64,000 bases of DNA, taken from contig NZ_CP010429.1 of the NCBI RefSeq assembly GCF_000974425.1, forward strand, positions 5,565,501-5,629,500. Direction: 5' to 3'. Each line of letters begins with the position of its first letter. Position 1 is the stretch's first letter. Source of the stretch: Spirosoma radiotolerans. Lineage in GTDB: Bacteria > Bacteroidota > Bacteroidia > Cytophagales > Spirosomataceae. The position numbers were made by a program, and so were the translations under genes. Shown piece by piece: positions 3,523-56,483 of the stretch. The notes beneath the pieces are model-generated. The model ran no database searches. It was not told the origin of the DNA and saw only the letters and a list, made by a program, of their open reading frames with translations.

Positions 3523-3610
3523 AACTAACAGATTGTACCCGAAAGTTTAAAAAGCCGCCCCTATTCAGTCAGGGGCGGCTTTTTAAACTTTCGGGTACAA
3601 TCTGTTAGTT
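3523..3610. terminator. 40-bp perfect hairpin, bidirectional terminator candidate
   Basis: Arms 3523-3562 and 3571-3610 are perfectly complementary over 40 bp, with an 8-base loop. The core is GC-rich (GCCGCCCCT) flanked by A and T runs, so either strand gives a stem followed by U-rich sequence. The right arm covers the stop codon (3605-3607) of the minus-strand gene. It separates two convergent transcription units. Confidence 0.85.
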
Positions 3611-5868: not shown

Positions 5869-5943
5869 GCGAAAGAGTGAATGAGTACAAGAGCGAATTT
5901 CGCTGATAGCAGTTTTCACTCTTTCGCTCATTCATTCTTTCGC
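5869..5943. repeat. Inverted repeat between DUF1800 and DUF1501 genes (GAGTGAATGAG family, copy B)
   Basis: An imperfect stem of about 29 bp starts 3 bases after the DUF1800 stop and ends 10 bases before the DUF1501 start codon. The arms share the words GAGTGAATGAG and CTTTCGCTC with copies at 901, 25274 and 54858. Confidence 0.8.
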
Positions 5944-8692: not shown

Positions 8693-8726
8693 CTTCCACG
8701 GTCCGTGTCCTCACGGACCGTGGAAG
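8693..8726. repeat. 15-bp perfect hairpin with TCCT loop
   Basis: Arms 8693-8707 and 8712-8726 are fully complementary around the loop TCCT. The core CCGTGTCCTCACGG recurs at 23514-23529, and a near copy is at 23453-23474. It lies between the aminotransferase gene's 3' end and the AhpD-fold gene's 5' end, so on the minus strand it could end the aminotransferase transcript. Confidence 0.75.
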
Positions 8727-17409: not shown

Positions 17410-17427
17410 CCAAGTTTAAGGGGTCTA

Positions 17428-17506
17428 ATATTCAGTTTTCGGTATACAATTAGCTGACGCAAACACTCATCACGCACCAGCCAACCGTATACCGAAAACT
17501 GAATAT
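17428..17506. repeat. 20-bp perfect hairpin between susC and susD genes
   Basis: Arms 17428-17447 and 17487-17506 pair perfectly around a 39-base loop. The loop contains CCAGCCAACCGTA, a word also found in the hairpin at 34148. It may reduce read-through to the susD gene or stabilise the susC message. Confidence 0.8.
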
Positions 17507-17528
17507 CAGAACCACAAACACTCCAAAA

Positions 17529-19064: not shown

Positions 19065-19360
19065 CCATTTTCTTTCTATTCCACATGAACAGGCCCGACC
19101 GTAACTGGTTGGGCTTATTCGTTTCCAGCCTCTTAACCTGAGGGCTTTGCCATTGTGCTGTCAGTTTCTTAAAACCTGTTGAATGGGCGGTCAGCCTGCC
19201 GTCAAGCTAACGAGGTTTTGACCGGGCTGGCGTTCCAGAAACCCTTCTCCGTGGTCGTTAGGACACAACCCACTTCTCCAGATGGCGACTCCGTTGCTGA
19301 CGCCCGTGAGGGCTGTGATGACACAGTTCCTGTAGTACAAAGAGTACGCAATCCATTTAT
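19065..19360. other. Gene-free gap after susD with terminator and repeat word
   Basis: 296 bases with no convincing gene. It contains the SusD terminator (19091-19116) and a 27-base word at 19291-19317 that is 24/27 identical to 23493-23519, so it belongs to a dispersed repeat that also includes TCCT-loop hairpins. Confidence 0.6.
19091..19116 (+). terminator. Terminator-like stem-loop after susD
   Basis: AGGCCCGACC (19091-19100) pairs with GGTTGGGCTT (19107-19116) as RNA over 10 bp including two G-U pairs, with loop GTAACT and a T-rich continuation. It is 27 bases after the SusD stop. Confidence 0.65.
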
Positions 19361-20314: not shown

Positions 20315-20834
20315 AGTCGTCAATAGTAAAATACAGTAAACAAGGAAGGGATATACCAAACTGACTAATAGCGCTATATACTTAGTAATTTCTACGCTGA
20401 AAGTACTACTATTTTTTAATACCTGAGGCAGGACAACTAACCGCTAAATATATTTACTGCTATAAAAATCAGCAATTAAATGCCTGATAATGAATAAACT
20501 ACCTAAATATATATCTTAACGCAATTTGAATAATTGGCTATAATATGTTCATAGTTTACCCAAATCTATAACTATCATTTTTAATTATTAATCAATAAAG
20601 TATAGGCCCTTTGTTACTTCACATTTTATGTTCACGAAAAGCATAATAAATAAATAGTTACTTTAGGTATTTCGAATAAAATATAAATAATTTCCACAGA
20701 CGGTTTTACACAAAATATCGCCTGAATTGCAACTACGAACGCTGCAATTCAGGCGATACACGCACTGCGCTATTTTATATGATTATTCGTATTTGACGGA
20801 CTGGCCAGCGACAAGTAAATTATCAACTTATAAA
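20315..20834. other. AT-rich gene-free region upstream of the dioxygenase gene
   Basis: 520 bases, strongly AT-rich, no plausible coding region. A TAnnTTTG match on the minus strand (20561-20568) lacks a properly spaced upstream TTG, so it is not called as a promoter. One strong hairpin at 20716-20758 marks the end of the egt transcript. Confidence 0.6.
20716..20758 (-). terminator. 16-bp perfect hairpin downstream of egtD
   Basis: Arms 20716-20731 and 20743-20758 pair perfectly around an 11-base loop, 77 bases beyond the egtD stop. On the minus strand the stem is followed by TTTTGTG, so it can end the egtBD message. Confidence 0.7.
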
Positions 20835-23401: not shown

Positions 23402-23452
23402 AAGAAAGATATAGGATATGGGATGTAGGATGTATGGCAAAACGTCACTCCA

Positions 23453-23532
23453 AGGGCTATGTCCTCACAGCCCTCCCTACAGGATGGTTACCCCGTTGCT
23501 GACGCCTGAGAGGGCCGTGTCCTCACGGCCCT
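23453..23532. repeat. Two TCCT-loop hairpins with a shared spacer word
   Basis: AGGGCTATG/CACAGCCCT (23453-23461 and 23466-23474, one mismatch) and AGGGCCGTG/CACGGCCCT (23511-23519 and 23524-23532, perfect) both use the loop TCCT. Between them 23493-23519 repeats the word found at 19291. The architecture matches the hairpin at 8693. Confidence 0.75.
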
Positions 23533-23544
23533 TGGAGGATATGG

Positions 23545-23605
23545 GATGTATGGTGTAGGCTGTATGATGTATTTTGCCTATATCATACAGCCTACACCAT
23601 ACATC
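23545..23605. terminator. 24-bp perfect hairpin after the receiver-flavoprotein gene
   Basis: Arms 23545-23568 and 23582-23605 pair perfectly with a 13-base loop, ending 5 bases before the last codon position of the minus-strand gene. The arms are built from GTATG/CATAC words. It likely ends that transcript. Confidence 0.8.
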
Positions 23606-25273: not shown

Positions 25274-25352
25274 GAAAGAGTGAATGAGTAAAAGAGCGAA
25301 AGAGCGAAAGAACCTGCCAGATGGCTTCGCTCTTGCGCTCATTCACCCTTTC
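25274..25352. repeat. Inverted repeat inside the kinase/receiver operon (GAGTGAATGAG family, copy C)
   Basis: Arms 25274-25300 and 25326-25352 (27 bases) pair with four mismatches. It fills the gap between the kinase stop and the downstream start codon. Words match the copies at 901, 5869 and 54858. Confidence 0.8.
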
Positions 25353-25357
25353 GCTCT

Positions 25358-26764
25358 TTAAACTGGTAAGCAAACACTGAATTCTGTGTGGCCGGGTTCA
25401 GACTGTACCTTGATGGAGCCGTTATGGTGTTTCATAATGCCCTGTACAATATCAAGACCGAGTCCGGTGCCCTTCCCAATTTCTTTGGTCGTAAAAAATG
25501 GGTCAAATATCTTATCCCGAATGTCTTCTGGGATACCAGCTCCATTGTCGATGATTTTGGTTAGTACAAACGCTTCGTCTTCCGACCGCTTGTCGGGTTG
25601 GCTGCTGATTTCGAGTTTACCACCGTCGGGCATCGCGTCGATGGCATTGTCGATCAGGTTGGTCCAGACCTGGTTCAATTCGCCGGGCCAGCCACAAATA
25701 ACGGGTAAATCGTCGGCAATTGTCAACGTCAGGTCAATGTGTTTGCTTTTAATTTTATGAGCCAGCAACGTAACCGTATTGCGAAGGCCTTCGGCCAACC
25801 TGACTTCCTGCTTGCCCACGCCCCTATCCATTTGGGTGTAGTTTTTGATGGAATCAATCAGCGTTGCTATCCGTTTCGAAGCCTCCCCAATATCAGACAC
25901 CAGCTTCTCGGTTACTAAATTATTGACCAGCCAATTGGCTACACCCGCCAGATTTTCATCGCCAATCTTTTCGAGTATCCAATCCAGATCGTCGACCGTA
26001 AACCCATAGCCGACCAATGGACCGGCCAGATCCATATGGTCTTCAACGCCATGATCGTCCAGCCAATCGGTCACATCATCTTCCAGGCTCGTCCGTTCGA
26101 GTAAGGTCAACCGATGTGTGTCAACGGTTGATTGCTGGTCAAGTTTTTTGAAGAATACGTCTGTCACACAATCGACCTGATCGCTTGTCAGATTGAGGTT
26201 CATAACGACTTTGAATGCTTCGGGAGTGGCCCGCAAATGCGTATTGAGCGTATCGACCGAGCGCACAACAGCTGCTACCGGGTTATTGAGTTCATGGGCC
26301 AACCCCGCCGACAAACGTCCCAGCGAGGCCATTTTCTCGTTTTGCTGCGTGAGTTTCGTATAGTCCCGAACACGGGTCGTCATTTGATGCACCAGCGATT
26401 CGGTAAGCTCATAGCAGTTTTTGGCCAAATCAGGCAGGTTGTCACGATGAAGCCGCAGAAGTGTTGTTGGCCGCTCAGTGATTAACCGGTTTGACAGGCT
26501 TTTCATCCGGGAAAACGGTAACACACCCAGAATAGAGTGATCGCCGTAGACAATCAATTCATCGTCGGCTCCATTCGCCCCGGCATCAATGCGAATACGG
26601 CCGTTCAGCAACAATAATAAGTGGTCGACTGGCTCGTGGGGTTTATAAAGTACCGTCTCTTTTGGGTAAGATACCTCTTCGCTCCGGTCAATAACCCATT
26701 GCAGTTGCGCATCCGGCACATTAGCGAAAGCCGGAAATTCGTGTAGCGTTTCTAACAGATTCAT
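25358..26764 (-). CDS. Histidine kinase with N-terminal cyclic-nucleotide-binding-like domain
   Basis: 468 residues. About 10-125 is a CRP-like sensor fold (SYPKETVLYKPHEPVDHLLLL, then GDHSILGVLPFS). The phospho-accepting helix has LGRLSAGLAHELNNP with H157. An unusual insertion of roughly 115 residues separates it from the second helix (SKRIATLIDSIKNYTQMD). The C-terminal ATPase has the N box QVWTNLIDNAIDAMPDGG, DNGAGIP, and KGTGLGLDIV. No membrane segment is seen, so it senses a cytoplasmic ligand. The paired regulator follows after a hairpin. ATG at 26764 gives the normal sensor length. Confidence 0.93.
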   Translation of the reverse strand: MNLLETLHEFPAFANVPDAQLQWVIDRSEEVSYPKETVLYKPHEPVDHLLLLLNGRIRIDAGANGADDELIVYGDHSILGVLPFSRMKSLSNRLITERPTTLLRLHRDNLPDLAKNCYELTESLVHQMTTRVRDYTKLTQQNEKMASLGRLSAGLAHELNNPVAAVVRSVDTLNTHLRATPEAFKVVMNLNLTSDQVDCVTDVFFKKLDQQSTVDTHRLTLLERTSLEDDVTDWLDDHGVEDHMDLAGPLVGYGFTVDDLDWILEKIGDENLAGVANWLVNNLVTEKLVSDIGEASKRIATLIDSIKNYTQMDRGVGKQEVRLAEGLRNTVTLLAHKIKSKHIDLTLTIADDLPVICGWPGELNQVWTNLIDNAIDAMPDGGKLEISSQPDKRSEDEAFVLTKIIDNGAGIPEDIRDKIFDPFFTTKEIGKGTGLGLDIVQGIMKHHNGSIKVQSEPGHTEFSVCLPV

Positions 26765-27766: not shown

Positions 27767-27848
27767 TTAACCACAGAGGCACGGAGAGCACAGAGATATG
27801 CATTATTGATTTGAGCTATCTCTGTGCTCTCCGTGCCTCTGTGGTTAA
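27767..27848. terminator. 32-bp perfect hairpin between convergent genes
   Basis: Arms 27767-27798 and 27817-27848 pair perfectly with an 18-base loop. Words such as ACCACAGAGGCACGGAG recur in many bacterial genomes by my recollection. Each strand continues with A/T-rich sequence, suiting a bidirectional terminator for the ChaN-like and glycosidase-like genes. Confidence 0.8.
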
Positions 27849-34147: not shown

Positions 34148-34244
34148 GTTTGTGGTTTTACGGTTTGTGGTTTACGGTTGGCTGGCGCGTTAGCAACACT
34201 CGTGCGCCAGCCAACCGTAAACCACAAACCGTAAAACCACAAAC
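34148..34244. repeat. 41-bp perfect hairpin, longest in the window
   Basis: Arms 34148-34188 and 34204-34244 pair perfectly with a 15-base loop; a partial third copy of the word ACCACAAACCGTAAACC follows to 34266. The stem lies between holB (stop 34136) and the next start (34285). Its words GTTTGTGG and ACGGTTTGTGG are internally repeated, giving it a low-complexity look. Confidence 0.88.
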
Positions 34245-34827: not shown

Positions 34828-35736
34828 ATGCGAATTGCCATTTTATCGGCCAATCCGAACTTATACTCGACGCAACGACTGCTCGAAGCCGCCAATCGGC
34901 GTGGCCATGAGGGCGTCCTTGTGAACCACCTGAACTGCCACGTCATGATTGAAGGCGGTAAACCCTCTGTGCTCTACGAAGGCAAGGAATTAGACTCGTT
35001 CGATGCAATTGTACCCCGCATCGGAGCTTCGGTAACGGACTATGGATGTGCGGTTGTCCGGCAGTTCGAGATGATGAATGTCTTCACAACGGGCAAATCG
35101 CAGGCAATCATGCGATCCCGCAACAAGCTCCGCAGTTTGCAGGTACTCTCGAAAGCGGGCGTTGGGTTGCCCAAAACCATGTTCGCCAATCACCCTAAAA
35201 ACGGCGACATTACGCAACTCATTCACCTCGTTGGCGGCCCGCCCGTTGTCATCAAATTGCTGGAAGGCACTCAGGGCATTGGCGTCGTACTCGCCGAAAC
35301 AACCAAAGCCGCCAAGTCGACCATCGAAGCGTTTTATGGCCTGAAAAAGAATGTATTGGTGCAGGAATTCATTGCTGAAGCCAAAGGGTCCGATATTCGG
35401 GCGTTTGTGGTGGGTGGCCGCGTGGTAGGGGCCATAAAGCGACAGGGGCTGGAGGGCGACTTCCGCTCCAACCTGCATCGAGGAGGCAACGCCGTTGCGG
35501 TCGAGCTGACCCCGCACGAAGAACAAACCGCCATTGCTGCTGCCCGCGCCCTCGGCCTGAAAGTGGCTGGTGTCGATATGCTTCCCTCCGACCGGGGCCT
35601 TCTGGTACTGGAAGTCAATTCGTCTCCAGGGCTGGAAGGCGTCGAAAATGCTACCGGCATCGACGTTGCCGCGCAAATCATCGCCTACATCGAAGACAAA
35701 ATTCGCACCGACGAAGGCGACACGGTAGGAGTTTAA
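34828..35736 (+). CDS. rimK: RimK-type alpha-L-glutamate ligase (ATP-grasp)
   Basis: 302 residues. RimK hallmarks are visible: [21 protein letters not shown] at the start, [35 protein letters not shown], then the ATP-grasp core [47 protein letters not shown] and the metal-binding [14 protein letters not shown]. RimK adds glutamates to the C-terminus of ribosomal protein S6 in enterobacteria; here the target may differ. It follows the retropepsin-like gene by 54 bases and is followed by an unknown gene across an imperfect hairpin. Confidence 0.93.
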
Positions 35737-35814
35737 TGAAGAATGTTGAGTGAATGGTTAAGAATAAATAATTTTACTAGTTCCTACCCTCTATTATTCA
35801 TTTCACATTCTTCA
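35737..35814. repeat. Imperfect inverted repeat after rimK
   Basis: TGAAGAATGT (35737-35746) pairs perfectly with 35805-35814, and pairing continues inward with mismatches for about 10 more bases. It begins directly after the rimK stop codon and ends 6 bases before the next start, like other gene-boundary hairpins here. Confidence 0.65.
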
Positions 35815-35820
35815 CTGAAA

Positions 35821-36375
35821 ATGCCCGCTCTCGATCCTGATCTCAAAAAAGCCATCGTTCGAATGTCGGGCGGGGAGAAAGATAAATTACTGCTTCGGCT
35901 GATCGCGAAAGATGCGGTATTGACCGAAAAGCTTCAATTTGAGCTGGTTGAAGAGGGCAAAACCATTGACGAACGGCGCAGCCTGATTCGGGAGTTCATT
36001 GATCGGACCTCCAGGCTGCATGCCGACACGCCCGGCTGGCTGATGATGGACATGCGAACCGCCAGCGGTTATATCAGCCGTCACCTTAAAGTCACTAAAG
36101 ACAAATATGGCGAAGTTGAATTGATGCTGTGTATGCTCAATACCTTCTACGAGCACAACGCCCACCTGTTGCAGAAGTACAATTCCCGCTCCGACAAAGC
36201 TGCCGAATACATTGCCAAACGCACCGATCAGGTGTTGAAAAAAGCGCTTAAGCTCGACCCTGATTATCATATCGAGTTTGCCGATGAGATCAATAAACTA
36301 CTCAGTTGGGTGCATTATACCGCCCCTGCGCACTACGCCCGGCAATTAGGTCTACCCAAAGAGTGGCAGGTCTGA
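35821..36375 (+). CDS. Conserved-looking helical protein, function unknown
   Basis: 184 residues, charged and mainly helical, without signal or membrane segments. Recognisable stretches are PDLKKAIVRMSGGEKDKLLL, FIDRTSRLHADTPGWLMMDM and the end SWVHYTAPAHYARQLGLPK. I do not recognise the family. It follows rimK in the same direction and may belong to that operon. Its last 56 bases (36320-36375) are repeated at 36923-36978 beyond a toxin-antitoxin module, with differences almost only at third codon positions; see the separate entries. Confidence 0.8.
   Translation: MPALDPDLKKAIVRMSGGEKDKLLLRLIAKDAVLTEKLQFELVEEGKTIDERRSLIREFIDRTSRLHADTPGWLMMDMRTASGYISRHLKVTKDKYGEVELMLCMLNTFYEHNAHLLQKYNSRSDKAAEYIAKRTDQVLKKALKLDPDYHIEFADEINKLLSWVHYTAPAHYARQLGLPKEWQV
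36320..36375 (+). repeat. Direct repeat, copy 1 (3' end of the host gene)
   Basis: 56 bases covering the last 17 codons and stop of the unknown gene. Copy 2 at 36923-36978 has the same length and about 50 identical positions. The period is 603 bases and the copies bracket the toxin-antitoxin module. Confidence 0.9.
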
Positions 36376-37050: not shown

Positions 37051-37962
37051 ATGAATCAAACTGTTTTAATAACAGGCGGCACTGGCTCTATTGGTCGTCG
37101 CCTAACGCAAATGCTCAGACAGGAAGGCTACCAGGTGTCCTTGTTGAGTAGGTCGCCCAAGTCTATTCCGGATGTGCGTGTGTATCAGTGGGATATCAAA
37201 AAGGGGCATATCGACCCGCAGGCCATTGCCACAGCCGATCATATCATTCATTTAGCTGGTGAAGCAATCGCCGATGAGCGCTGGTCAGACCAGCGGAAAG
37301 AAGACATTCTAAACAGCCGCACCCAATCGACTGACTTACTGGTGCAGGCACTGGCGAAGAACCCACATCATGTAAAATCGTTTGTGGGTGCTTCGGCGAT
37401 TGGTTATTACGGGGGCGACACCGCCGACCGGCCGCTTACGGAAACCAGTCAGGGTGGGTCCGACTTTCTGGCTCAGGTGGTGCGAGCCTGGGAGCGTTCG
37501 GAAGAGCAAATAGCCGCACTCGGTATTCGTACCGTAAAGCTTCGAATTGGGGTGGTGCTGATGGCGGAAGGAGGAGCGTTGCCCAAATTGGCGCAGCCCA
37601 TTCGGCTGGGCGCAGGTGCACCTATCGGTTCGGGTCAGCAATACATTTCCTGGATTCACCTCGACGACCTGTGTCGATTATTCAGTCGGGGACTTTCGGA
37701 CGAAACCTGGCAGGGCGTTTACAACGCGGTTGCTCCCAATCCCGTTACCAACGAAACCTTGACACGGGCTATTGCCGGGGTGCTTCACCGGCCTATTTTG
37801 TTGCCTAATATTCCAAATTTTGCCATTAAACTGCTCTACGGCGAAATGGCAATTGTTGTCACCGGTGGCAACTACGTGCTCAATAAACGAATCGCCGACG
37901 AGACAGACTTTGTCTATCAGCATTCCGATTTGAAAACGGCACTGCAGGATTTATTAACGTAA
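37051..37962 (+). CDS. TIGR01777 family NAD-dependent epimerase-like protein
   Basis: 303 residues of the extended SDR fold. The cofactor site is ITGGTGSIGRRL near the start; HLAGEAIADERWSDQRKEDI and SRTQSTDLLVQAL are typical of the YfcH/SulA-like TIGR01777 family, followed by FVGASAIGYYGG, LRIGVVL and YISWIHLDDLCRLF. Cytoplasmic; the substrate of the family is unknown. It converges with the enolase-superfamily gene, separated only by a 34-base perfect palindrome. A short stretch after the direct repeat (36979-37050) separates it from the toxin-antitoxin module. Confidence 0.92.
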   Translation: MNQTVLITGGTGSIGRRLTQMLRQEGYQVSLLSRSPKSIPDVRVYQWDIKKGHIDPQAIATADHIIHLAGEAIADERWSDQRKEDILNSRTQSTDLLVQALAKNPHHVKSFVGASAIGYYGGDTADRPLTETSQGGSDFLAQVVRAWERSEEQIAALGIRTVKLRIGVVLMAEGGALPKLAQPIRLGAGAPIGSGQQYISWIHLDDLCRLFSRGLSDETWQGVYNAVAPNPVTNETLTRAIAGVLHRPILLPNIPNFAIKLLYGEMAIVVTGGNYVLNKRIADETDFVYQHSDLKTALQDLLT

Positions 37963-37963
37963 A

Positions 37964-37997
37964 CGTAGCGTGGTGCGGCATGCCGCACCACGCTACG
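37964..37997. terminator. 34-base perfect palindrome between convergent genes
   Basis: CGTAGCGTGGTGCGGCA is followed at once by its exact reverse complement, giving 17 bp with no extra loop. It occupies nearly the whole gap between the stops at 37962 and 38004, so it can end transcription from both sides. Confidence 0.8.
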
Positions 37998-40652: not shown

Positions 40653-40678
40653 TTTCGTTTATACGTCGTAAATTGGCC

Positions 40679-40747
40679 CGTTGCCGAATCGTAAATAGCC
40701 ACCGCGGAGCTACTACCCACGTGTCTGTTTCTTACGGTTCGGCAACG
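40679..40747. repeat. Hairpin between the two RraA-like genes
   Basis: CGTTGCCGAATCGTAA (40679-40694) pairs with 40732-40747 at 15 of 16 positions. It lies in the 141-base gap between the paralogues. Confidence 0.75.
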
Positions 40748-40793
40748 TTCGATTTTAGGCTTACTCACTTACCTCCATTAATTAACCGGACGA

Positions 40794-54796: not shown

Positions 54797-54857
54797 GGCT
54801 AATTACTTATCGAGTAAGGTAATAAAGCTCACTCTACAAATTCAGTGCCATAAATAA

Positions 54858-54960
54858 TGAGTGAAAGAATGAATGAGTGAAAGAGCGCAAAATAGCCCGG
54901 CAGAAGGGATGCGCGCGTCTGCCTTATTCGCTCTTTCACTCATTAACTCTTTCGCTCTTT
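54858..54960. repeat. Inverted repeat overlapping the trehalase stop (GAGTGAATGAG family, copy D)
   Basis: Core arms 54872-54887 and 54929-54944 pair perfectly over 16 bp, and pairing extends outward with mismatches. The right arm covers the last nine codons and stop of the trehalase gene, whose protein therefore ends in repeat-encoded KSERVNE. Confidence 0.82.
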
Positions 54961-56483
54961 ACATCCTTCTCCATCGCCACATACACGCCATTCGTCCAGC
55001 CGAAGCCGTCCTGGTTAGGGTACTCACCCCCGCCGGTGGTCAGAGCCGCGTGAACAACATTATACTTTTCCATCATTTTGCCCGTGGCCCGAAATACTTT
55101 GTCATTTAAATCCATCCAGCGGTTTCGGCCTTCGCGCGCGGTTTCGACAAAGCCATAATTTATTAAGGCCTGATAAACAATCCATTGTAAGGGAGCCCAA
55201 CCGTTAGGCCAGTCCCATTGCTGCCCTGTTTGATGAAGTGTAGTGACCCAGCCACCCGGCTGCAGGAAGTCAGCTTTGAGCCGGTCATGAACGCGGGCTG
55301 CCTGCTGGGGCGTGGCAAGCTTGAAAAATAAAGGGAACACGCCCGCTAACGTTACGGCCTCCGTTTGACATCCTTCGACAACGTCGTAGTCATGAAAGAA
55401 TCCAGTGTCTTCGTTCCAGAACGTTTGCTGAATCGCCTGCGCACGCTGGTTACTCAATTCAGCAAATTTTTCGCTTGGAGGTCCTGCTGCATCAGGCTCG
55501 TCGGGTATCGTTTGCAGGGCTGTTTCCAGTGAATAGAGCAGGCAGTTCAAATCGACGGATAAAATGTGAGCCGTGTGAATACTGGTCATCGTTTTCTGAT
55601 CGCGAAACCAGCGGCTACTAAAATCCCAACCAGATTCGCAGGCCGACCGGATGTGATTGTATAGCTCGTCAGGTACAACCCCCAGTGGTTCGGCGCTGTG
55701 CGACAAGTCAACTTCCTGCCGGTAGGCTTCCGGTCGAGGCCGCGGGGTATCGTCCCAATAGCGATTCAGTACGTACTGACCGGCTACCTTCGCAACGCGG
55801 CTACCCATAGGCGTTTCATCAGAAAGTTTCTCCTGGTTTTGCATCCAGAAATCGTGTTCACGCAGCAATTGAGGCTTGTAGGTTGCCCATGTTTCAGGTC
55901 CCGCAGCCTCAGCCAGCAGACCCACCATCAATGCAAAATAGGGTGGCTGCGACCGGCTTAGAAAATAGGTTCGGTTCCCGTTCGGAATAAAGCCAAACTC
56001 ATCAATCAGAAACGCAAAATTATCGAGCATGGCCCGAATCAAATTGGCTCGTCCAGCTTCTTTCAGGCCAAGCATAGTAAAGTAGGTATCCCAATAGAAG
56101 ATTTCACGAAACCGCCCACCTGGCACAACATATGGATTCGGCAGCGGTATGCGCGAACTACCGTCGATTGATGCTCCATCGGCCTGGCGCGTGAGGTGAT
56201 CCCACAGTCGGTCGATATGTTCAGCCGTGCTGATGGATGTATCGCTTACATACTTATCCGCCACTTTTTCGGGCATAGTAAAATAAGCATGCACAAACGC
56301 ACTCAGATCAAAGTCAGGCTGGCTTTTCTGGCTCTCGTATTGCGCAACGACTTCGGCCGGAGCCTGTTTAGGCGTACAGTCTACAAATGTTTTGGAGTCG
56401 GCGAAAACACGGCTAAGTTGTACATCACTGAACAGATTACCGAACAGTTGATCGGGAGATTGAGGAAATGCTGAATTTGCCAA
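54936..56483 (-). CDS. Alpha,alpha-trehalase (GH37)
   Basis: 515 residues without a clear signal peptide, so possibly cytoplasmic like TreF. GH37 signatures are VPGGRFREIFYWDTYFTMLG and QQWDWPNGWAPLQWIVYQAL, plus FIPNGNRTYFLSRSQPPYFA, GWDFSSRWF and GGEYPNQDGFGWTNGVYV. It hydrolyses trehalose to two glucoses, relevant to osmotic or carbon metabolism. The final residues (EKDVKSERVNE) are encoded by an intergenic-type inverted repeat, which may have replaced the original C-terminus. Confidence 0.94.
   Translation of the reverse strand: MANSAFPQSPDQLFGNLFSDVQLSRVFADSKTFVDCTPKQAPAEVVAQYESQKSQPDFDLSAFVHAYFTMPEKVADKYVSDTSISTAEHIDRLWDHLTRQADGASIDGSSRIPLPNPYVVPGGRFREIFYWDTYFTMLGLKEAGRANLIRAMLDNFAFLIDEFGFIPNGNRTYFLSRSQPPYFALMVGLLAEAAGPETWATYKPQLLREHDFWMQNQEKLSDETPMGSRVAKVAGQYVLNRYWDDTPRPRPEAYRQEVDLSHSAEPLGVVPDELYNHIRSACESGWDFSSRWFRDQKTMTSIHTAHILSVDLNCLLYSLETALQTIPDEPDAAGPPSEKFAELSNQRAQAIQQTFWNEDTGFFHDYDVVEGCQTEAVTLAGVFPLFFKLATPQQAARVHDRLKADFLQPGGWVTTLHQTGQQWDWPNGWAPLQWIVYQALINYGFVETAREGRNRWMDLNDKVFRATGKMMEKYNVVHAALTTGGGEYPNQDGFGWTNGVYVAMEKDVKSERVNE

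Follow-up and report, generated by a model that had tools for sequence, protein, structure and literature searches.

A gap between the genes for a DNA polymerase III delta′ (HolB-like) subunit and an ATP-dependent Zn-protease of Spirosoma radiotolerans contains a hairpin with long, perfectly complementary arms (34148-34244), raising the question of how such stems arise at gene boundaries, what keeps their arms matched, and what they do there. The window analyzed was a stretch of 64 kb, bases 5,565,501 to 5,629,500 of the 7.03-Mb one-contig genome. Seven perfect stems had been listed in a sequence-only reading of the window, and all seven were verified in position and arm length, at 41, 40, 32, 24, 20, 17, and 16 bp (Table 1). 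Perfect stems did not exceed 12 bp in any of three third-order Markov nulls modeled on the window. When folded as RNA, 10 window hairpins gave z values from −6.0 to −21.3, with −79.4 kcal/mol and a z of −15.6 for the hairpin at 34148. No Rfam family matched within the window at the gathering threshold.

Table 1. Hairpins of the window, with positions counted from its first base
Positions	Hairpin	Sequence	Location
34148-34244	41-bp perfect stem, 15-nt loop	Arms of GTTTACGG/GTTTGTGG words, inner GGCTGGCGC core	
3523-3610	40-bp perfect stem, 8-nt loop	Mixed	Convergent gap
27767-27848	32-bp perfect stem	CACAGAG words	Convergent gap
23545-23605	24-bp perfect stem (extended: 27 nt, 96%)	GATGTATG words, period 7	Codirectional gap
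17424-17510	24-bp stem, one mismatch (20 bp perfect at 17428-17506)		SusC-like/SusD-like gap
37964-37997	17-bp perfect palindrome		Convergent gap
20716-20758	16-bp perfect stem, 11-nt loop	Mixed	
25275-25359	34-nt arms, 82% complementary	GAAAGAG words, period 8	Fills codirectional gap
54855-54961	Word hairpin	GAAAGAG/GAATGAG words, period 8	Codirectional gap
896-959	Word hairpin	GAGTGAA words	Codirectional gap, at stop codon of upstream gene
5869-5943	Word hairpin	GAAAGAGTGAA words	Codirectional gap
35732-35819	Weak hairpin, 24-nt arms, 79%		After rimK
40669-40757	26-nt arms, 81% complementary		
8693-8726	15-bp perfect stem, TCCT loop	GGTCCGTG TCCT CACGGACC type	

Abundance, position, and two classes of stems

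Inverted repeats were scored at +1 per match and −2 per mismatch, with a loop of up to 60 nt. In 464 kb of the S. radiotolerans genome, comprising the window and twenty 20-kb stretches, 78 scored at least 14, compared with 1 in one Markov null. They were distributed over codirectional (41), convergent (30), and divergent (4) gaps, with 3 inside called genes; genes were called with a simple script of our own, and start codons are rough. With sequence from other Spirosoma added (1,662 kb), a stem was held by 91/228 convergent, 155/886 codirectional, and 18/230 divergent gaps, an odds ratio of 7.8 for convergent versus divergent, and by 30/41 convergent gaps of 80 to 120 nt.

The density of stems scoring at least 20 was 8.6 per 100 kb in the S. 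radiotolerans genome, 14.0 in twenty Spirosoma neighborhoods, which represent a single orthologous region and not a random sample, and 5.9 to 7.8 in four samples of ∼220 kb. Other genera of the family gave 6.7, biased upward by the fact that four of the nine 20-kb stretches had been picked at word matches. The corresponding value was 0.6 in a small sample (167 kb) of other Bacteroidota and 0 in a similarly small one (150 kb) of Escherichia coli K-12, in which one stem of score 14 was found. Perfect inverted repeats have been reported to be enriched 3′ of stop codons across bacteria generally (PMC13155455); the terms Spirosoma, Bacteroidota, and template switch do not occur in the main text of that report. 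Another order of the phylum (genome G060, locus L176, positions 3423 and 11242) also contained hairpins of 8-nt AAATTCC units and of GTTTCAG words, hinting that word hairpins extend beyond the Spirosomataceae.

Two classes of hairpins were distinguished, one with mixed-sequence stems and the other with C-poor 5′ arms having a period of 7 or 8 nt. A set of 164 hairpins, consisting of the 78 from the S. radiotolerans genome and 86 from the twenty Spirosoma neighborhoods, contained 67 with a G-rich, C-poor 5′ arm, 10 with a C-rich 5′ arm, and 87 of mixed sequence. The G-rich hairpins were mostly in codirectional gaps (50/67), while the mixed ones were in both codirectional (35) and convergent (45) gaps. 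Among distinct 5′ arms of the 1,662-kb set, 96 were G rich and 17 were C rich; because the repeat is inverted, the G-rich 5′ arm occurs on both strands.

The G-rich arms contained 6% C and had a lag-7 identity of 0.51, against 0.32 after shuffling. Where these arms measured at least 20 nt (n = 71), the best period was 7 in 35, 8 in 18, and absent in 18, with periods 6 and 9 never found; any period was detected in 19/119 other arms. TGA greatly outnumbered TCA in G-rich 5′ arms (174 versus 8) and was about level with it in the others (72 versus 64), and stop triplets were present in all three frames in 29/71 G-rich arms, compared with 9.4 ± 2.5 in shuffles. In codirectional gaps (n = 66), the G-rich hairpin began a median of 7 nt past the stop codon, ended 16 nt short of the next called start, and spanned a median of 76% of the gap. 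The genes preceding G-rich hairpins ended in TGA in 25/112 cases and those without a hairpin in 231/1,005, showing no shift to TGA. Any GGG run was found in 17/96 G-rich arms and four such runs in 0/96. The motif GCTGRCGC was located at the apex of 18/118 G-rich stems (G-rich cut, 0.3; 0.36 expected) and 7/180 others (0.46 expected). An extended core, GCTGRCGCAYGRGTG, was considered as a widespread signature and discarded, having 8 exact matches in the S. radiotolerans genome and being present in only 10/61 family genomes.

These classes bear on the proposal in the sequence-only reading that each stem uses low-complexity words of its own and that no single element was copied to give the stems. 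The stems at 3523, 20716, and 37964 were of mixed sequence, the one at 3523 having a terminator-like core (AAAAAGCCGCCCCT / AGGGGCGGCTTTTT) of A-tract, GC-stem, and T-tract. The proposed independence was half right; it failed for the C-poor word class, which forms dispersed families. The words were not private to each stem either, as the GTTTACGG/GTTTGTGG and GAAAGAG families and the GGCTGACGC core were found again at many places.

Coordinated change of the two arms

Hairpins were compared between species pairs 90 to 93% identical and with a third species at 85 to 86%, giving 43 comparable hairpins. Mapping by flanks succeeded for 28/38, 19/31, 24/38, and 29/35, and unmapped hairpins were left out, as were those with orthologous arms less than 60% identical (18 in the count made in both directions); stricter cuts defined a set of 29 gap-free stems whose arms were at least 80% identical. 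Counting every pair once, with locus L102 compared against genome G021, both partners had changed in 58/953 pairs in register, compared with 10 to 18 of 698 to 913 when the partners were slid by 1 to 6 positions. The excess was present in word arms (20/306 versus 5 to 8 slid) and in other arms (38/647 versus 5 to 12), and on the same once-per-pair basis the 29 gap-free stems gave 17/642 versus 0 to 4. In the both-directions count, which includes four species pairs twice and L102 against two species, double changes that kept Watson-Crick pairing numbered 103, against 6.9 expected if the arms changed independently. The same count contained 127 cells with one-sided breaks, more than the 103 double changes, and some stems decay, such as that at 19271 of G021 relative to G001; copying would therefore be frequent but not constant. 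Conversion between arms had been suggested from the sequence alone, with a comparison of close strains as the check, and the co-variation of both arms across species supports it.

A two-step route through a G-U pair yields transitions only. Among 61 double changes, counted with L102 twice, 38 were transversions and 23 were transitions, while the flanks had 1,475 transitions and 629 transversions. Loop substitutions were transversion rich as well (43 transitions and 61 transversions), so part of the 38-to-23 excess may be misalignment. Of the Watson-Crick double changes in the 29 clean stems, 9 were transversions and 6 were transitions, against 7 transversions and 26 transitions for one-sided changes. 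G-U pairs resulted from 25/87 one-sided changes, about half of the 51 transitions, indicating no preference for G-U. Two of 29 loops were clearly inverted, with 17 in the same orientation and 10 undecided. Arm homogenization and spacer inversion are described as marks of template switching in PMC8604942 and PMC8794818, and published bacterial data are reported in the former to favor transversions. The coordinated arm change and the loop inversions seen here are, judging from the alignments, such marks of template switching during replication. Loss of nucleases that process hairpins found no support as a cause in the genome, where SbcD and ExoVII are present; the C-terminal family of ExoI was not found, a result that is uninformative given that the profile matched only 1/14 control genomes.

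It is somewhat probable that these are hairpins of gene boundaries which template switching builds and keeps perfect, with the presence of some of them selected. They would stand at gene 3′ ends, many of these being boundaries of transcription units and often bidirectional. A replicating polymerase would switch template within the inverted repeat and resynthesize one arm from the other, which would leave perfect arms and carry changes and small insertions into both at once; it could sometimes invert the loop or lengthen the stem into its flanks. Slippage of 7- to 8-nt units would then favor low-complexity words. At particular boundaries, selection would retain a hairpin of some kind, to terminate transcription or to block read-through, and would be nearly indifferent to its sequence, so that words turn over or give way to dispersed copies.

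Dispersed words and conserved places

With the 34148 sequence as the query, 78 BLAST matches were listed in its own genome, itself included, at many places on both strands. From these matches and the sampled stretches, 27 hairpins with its words were collected, 23 of them in codirectional gaps; many combine a variable loop with the inner core GGTTGGCTGACGC. Their own arms matched each other at 0.946 on average, compared with 0.861 for the closest other copy. The word GAAAGAGYGAAAGAGYG was found in 24/121 Spirosomataceae genomes, with 0 to 139 matches and with rich and empty species in one genus, and in 0/147 other sampled genomes of the phylum. As words and core recur at many loci, which template switching within a single stem cannot supply, dispersal is needed.

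Dispersal would follow if the word hairpins were mobile palindromic elements (MITE- or REP-like) inserted by a transposase, their perfect arms reflecting nothing more than recent insertion. The recurrence of word families and their patchy copy number among species fit this explanation, as do two insertion-like differences. In one convergent gap, a 13- to 14-bp stem of G001 encloses a 3-nt loop, while G021 shares this older outer stem, changed on both sides, with the loop replaced by an 80-nt palindrome (GAGTGAG words, GGCTGACGC core), an instance of the birth polymorphism anticipated by the sequence-only reading. In a second palindromic family, found in G004 and G005, the core GTGCCACGGTTA is near-constant and the outer arms differ yet stay perfect, and one G004 copy (joined position 84598), with TTCACT on either side, is missing in G005. 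However, target-site duplications were not in excess (at least 4 nt in 41/312 hairpins versus 34.6 in shuffled pairings). A RAYT/REP origin was rejected, since neither of the only two Y1-transposase matches in the genome sits between matched word hairpins, one of them having a GTTTACGG hairpin ∼170 bp downstream. Mixed-sequence stems outside any family co-vary alike (38/647 versus 5 to 12), and within the 34148 family the partner arm of the same hairpin was a better match than other copies in 19/27, with 4 ties. Mobility is thus considered unlikely to be the explanation. The G021 insertion and the G004/G005 family show that long perfect arms can arise without the copying of a fixed 40-bp element.

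Copies of the G004/G005 family (L143 to L162, L108, and L109) have ends like AGGACTTTCG, and their middle arm segments vary with complementarity kept. At L122 (G000:C1, ∼4.67 Mb), a Y1-transposase gene is flanked by GGTTTTGAGAAACC / GGTTTCTCAAAACC repeats; it resembles a RAYT accompanied by REPs of its own and seems to have no relation to the word hairpins.

Orthologous gaps were scored for stems of at least 14 where at least 9 orthologues were available; the species are related, and hence the counts are not independent. The gap after rimK (35736-35821) held a stem in 14/19 orthologues, with words that vary by species group (AAAGAGTG, GGATAATGTAGAATGAA, AATGATGAAT, TTGAATGG, and others), and the convergent gap at 37962 held one in 12/14, with different sequences. 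Further frequencies were 10/13 (25271), 4/9 (40652), 5/20 (32855), and 0/20 (34773), and three divergent gaps gave 1/15, 0/18, and 0/10. Since stems are present with differing words in orthologous gaps, some boundaries keep the hairpin but not the sequence. The gap of the 34148 hairpin itself (34136) had a stem in 2/20 orthologues, which hold unrelated words, so that unrelated orthologous gaps, named in the sequence-only reading as evidence against its proposal, were found in part at this place. The 25271 orthologue has a 39-bp stem in G001 and a 19-bp stem in G021; in an alignment by eye, the left arm of G001 is longer by 8 nt and its right arm by 16 nt, and a mirrored 8-nt unit is part of the additional sequence. 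The loops of rimK-gap orthologues in several species (L106, L107, L111, L113 to L115, and L120) contain, again by eye, TAnTTTTA/TAnnTTTG-like sequence, as though the hairpin loop housed the promoter of the following gene.

Purely mutational growth, in which spacers devoid of promoters fill with template-switch palindromes and slippage repeats that have no function, would produce the same marks of template switching. It agrees with the large share of codirectional gaps occupied by G-rich hairpins (the median of 76%) and with the missing G-U preference, which leaves no sign of selection on pairing. It does not account for the strong contrast among gaps that persists from species to species (14/19 and 12/14 at two gaps versus 0/20 at a third, in species that are not independent) or for spacers that do not fill in the small samples of other Bacteroidota and E. 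coli (0.6 and 0 per 100 kb), and it appears rather improbable. That the stems are ordinary intrinsic terminators, long by chance, with pairing kept through point mutation and selection, is very improbable: an A-tract and a T-tract together (simple rule) are found in 25/87 mixed stems and post-stop enrichment of perfect inverted repeats is general in bacteria (PMC13155455), but the signature occurs in only 4/67 G-rich stems, transversion-type double changes cannot pass through G-U, G-U pairs are not enriched, and loops are inverted.

Putative roles at gene boundaries and related systems

The motif TAnnTTTG is the −7 promoter element of Bacteroidota. It was found within 100 nt upstream of the gene in 25/155 cases behind codirectional hairpins, compared with 6 in a reversed control, and upstream of 19.1% of 430 divergent genes; behind gaps shorter than 20 nt, it was found in 4/150. 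Hairpin-free codirectional gaps of at least 60 nt had it in 55/479, not significantly fewer than those with a hairpin (P = 0.16), and the G-rich subset gave a weak signal (0.152 versus 0.061 reversed; n = 66). The counts fit boundaries of transcription units at some codirectional hairpin places but are no proof of them. The argument that several hairpins sit within operons, where a plain terminator would be hard to explain, becomes doubtful where a promoter element follows the hairpin, and it may hold for the SusC-like/SusD-like gap, which may be truly intraoperonic. For the hairpin in that gap (17424-17510), tuning of the SusD-like gene is, from its location, as plausible as termination. A GCTGACGC motif lies within the loop of this long hairpin.

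The positions of the hairpins suggest a role in termination or insulation. Predicted intrinsic terminators have been described for a Bacteroides (PMC7366714). Runs of at least four T's accompanied a minority of stems, the share ranging from 24% of the G-rich to 39% of the other stems in codirectional gaps, so that classic termination is no more than a putative role for the word class. A bolder and doubtful possibility is that the Spirosomataceae possess a sequence-free boundary module, in which a C-poor, stop-loaded 5′ arm of 7- or 8-nt period would halt ribosomes and RNA polymerase and insulate neighboring genes, its structure being inherited and its sequence rewritten by template switching and slippage. 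The bias for TGA over TCA (174 versus 8), the three-frame stops (29/71), the frame-cycling periods of 7 and 8, and the 96 G-rich versus 17 C-rich arms point toward such a module, whereas GTTTACGG and CACAGAG words have few or no stops, and the genes preceding G-rich hairpins show no shift toward TGA in their own stop codons.

Compensatory change is usually taken as proof of selection on RNA structure. Dozens of Spirosoma stems co-vary in a manner that points to copying, with double transversions, loop inversions, and no G-U preference, so the two processes can be separated in natural data. The system also allows one to ask how gene-end hairpins arise and are replaced while the boundary persists, and it raises the question of why intergenic repeats in unrelated bacteria favor 7-nt units, here joined by 8-nt ones. 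The copying process and heptamer repeats are already known. What look new are the scale and the combination, with many words per genome, perfect arms, conserved places, and stop-loaded 5′ arms. A literature search judged by title yielded no recognized paper on hairpins of Spirosoma.

Inverted repeats homogenized by template switching, as reported for yeast (PMC8604942) and RNA genes (PMC8794818), share the joint arm change, spacer inversion, and multibase double changes. Those accounts concern coding inverted repeats and RNA genes, whereas the present stems occur at gene ends genus-wide, with arms of 16 to 60 nt and low-complexity words. The G-rich heptamers of Xanthomonas and Nostoc (PMC4692102) are likewise intergenic 7-nt units near or overlapping stop codons, and 70 and 75 cases in two Xanthomonas species are described there as two convergent sites, i.e., as inverted repeats. 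In that account, each genus has one unit type, reported to form G-quadruplexes; Spirosoma, in contrast, has many words per genome, periods of both 7 and 8, four GGG runs in 0/96 arms, and arms that are kept complementary. TAACTGA heptamers of Beggiatoaceae, cyanobacteria, and five Bacteroidetes (PMC4679880) are also intergenic 7-nt repeats with stop triplets and a patchy distribution by species, but they are described as direct repeats, mostly before start codons, and inverted pairing is not among the features given there. Bidirectional intrinsic terminators resemble the hairpins in the post-stop stem, the convergent gaps, and, for part of the mixed class, the A- and T-tracts; they differ in that the present stems reach 20 to 40 bp and longer, T-runs are in the minority, and the word class lacks the signature. 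REP/BIME and MITE elements are similarly dispersed extragenic palindromes that are rare in divergent gaps, but here target duplications were not in excess, no fitting transposase was found, and arm sequence varies among copies.

A second hairpin type, built of GGTCCGTG TCCT CACGGACC units and often with GTGTCCTCAC, recurs in the genome. Besides the copy in Table 1, it was seen at 23448-23537 of the window and in sampled stretches L040 (17431), L055 (9048), and L057 (3183), and some copies adjoin a GGCTGACGC core.
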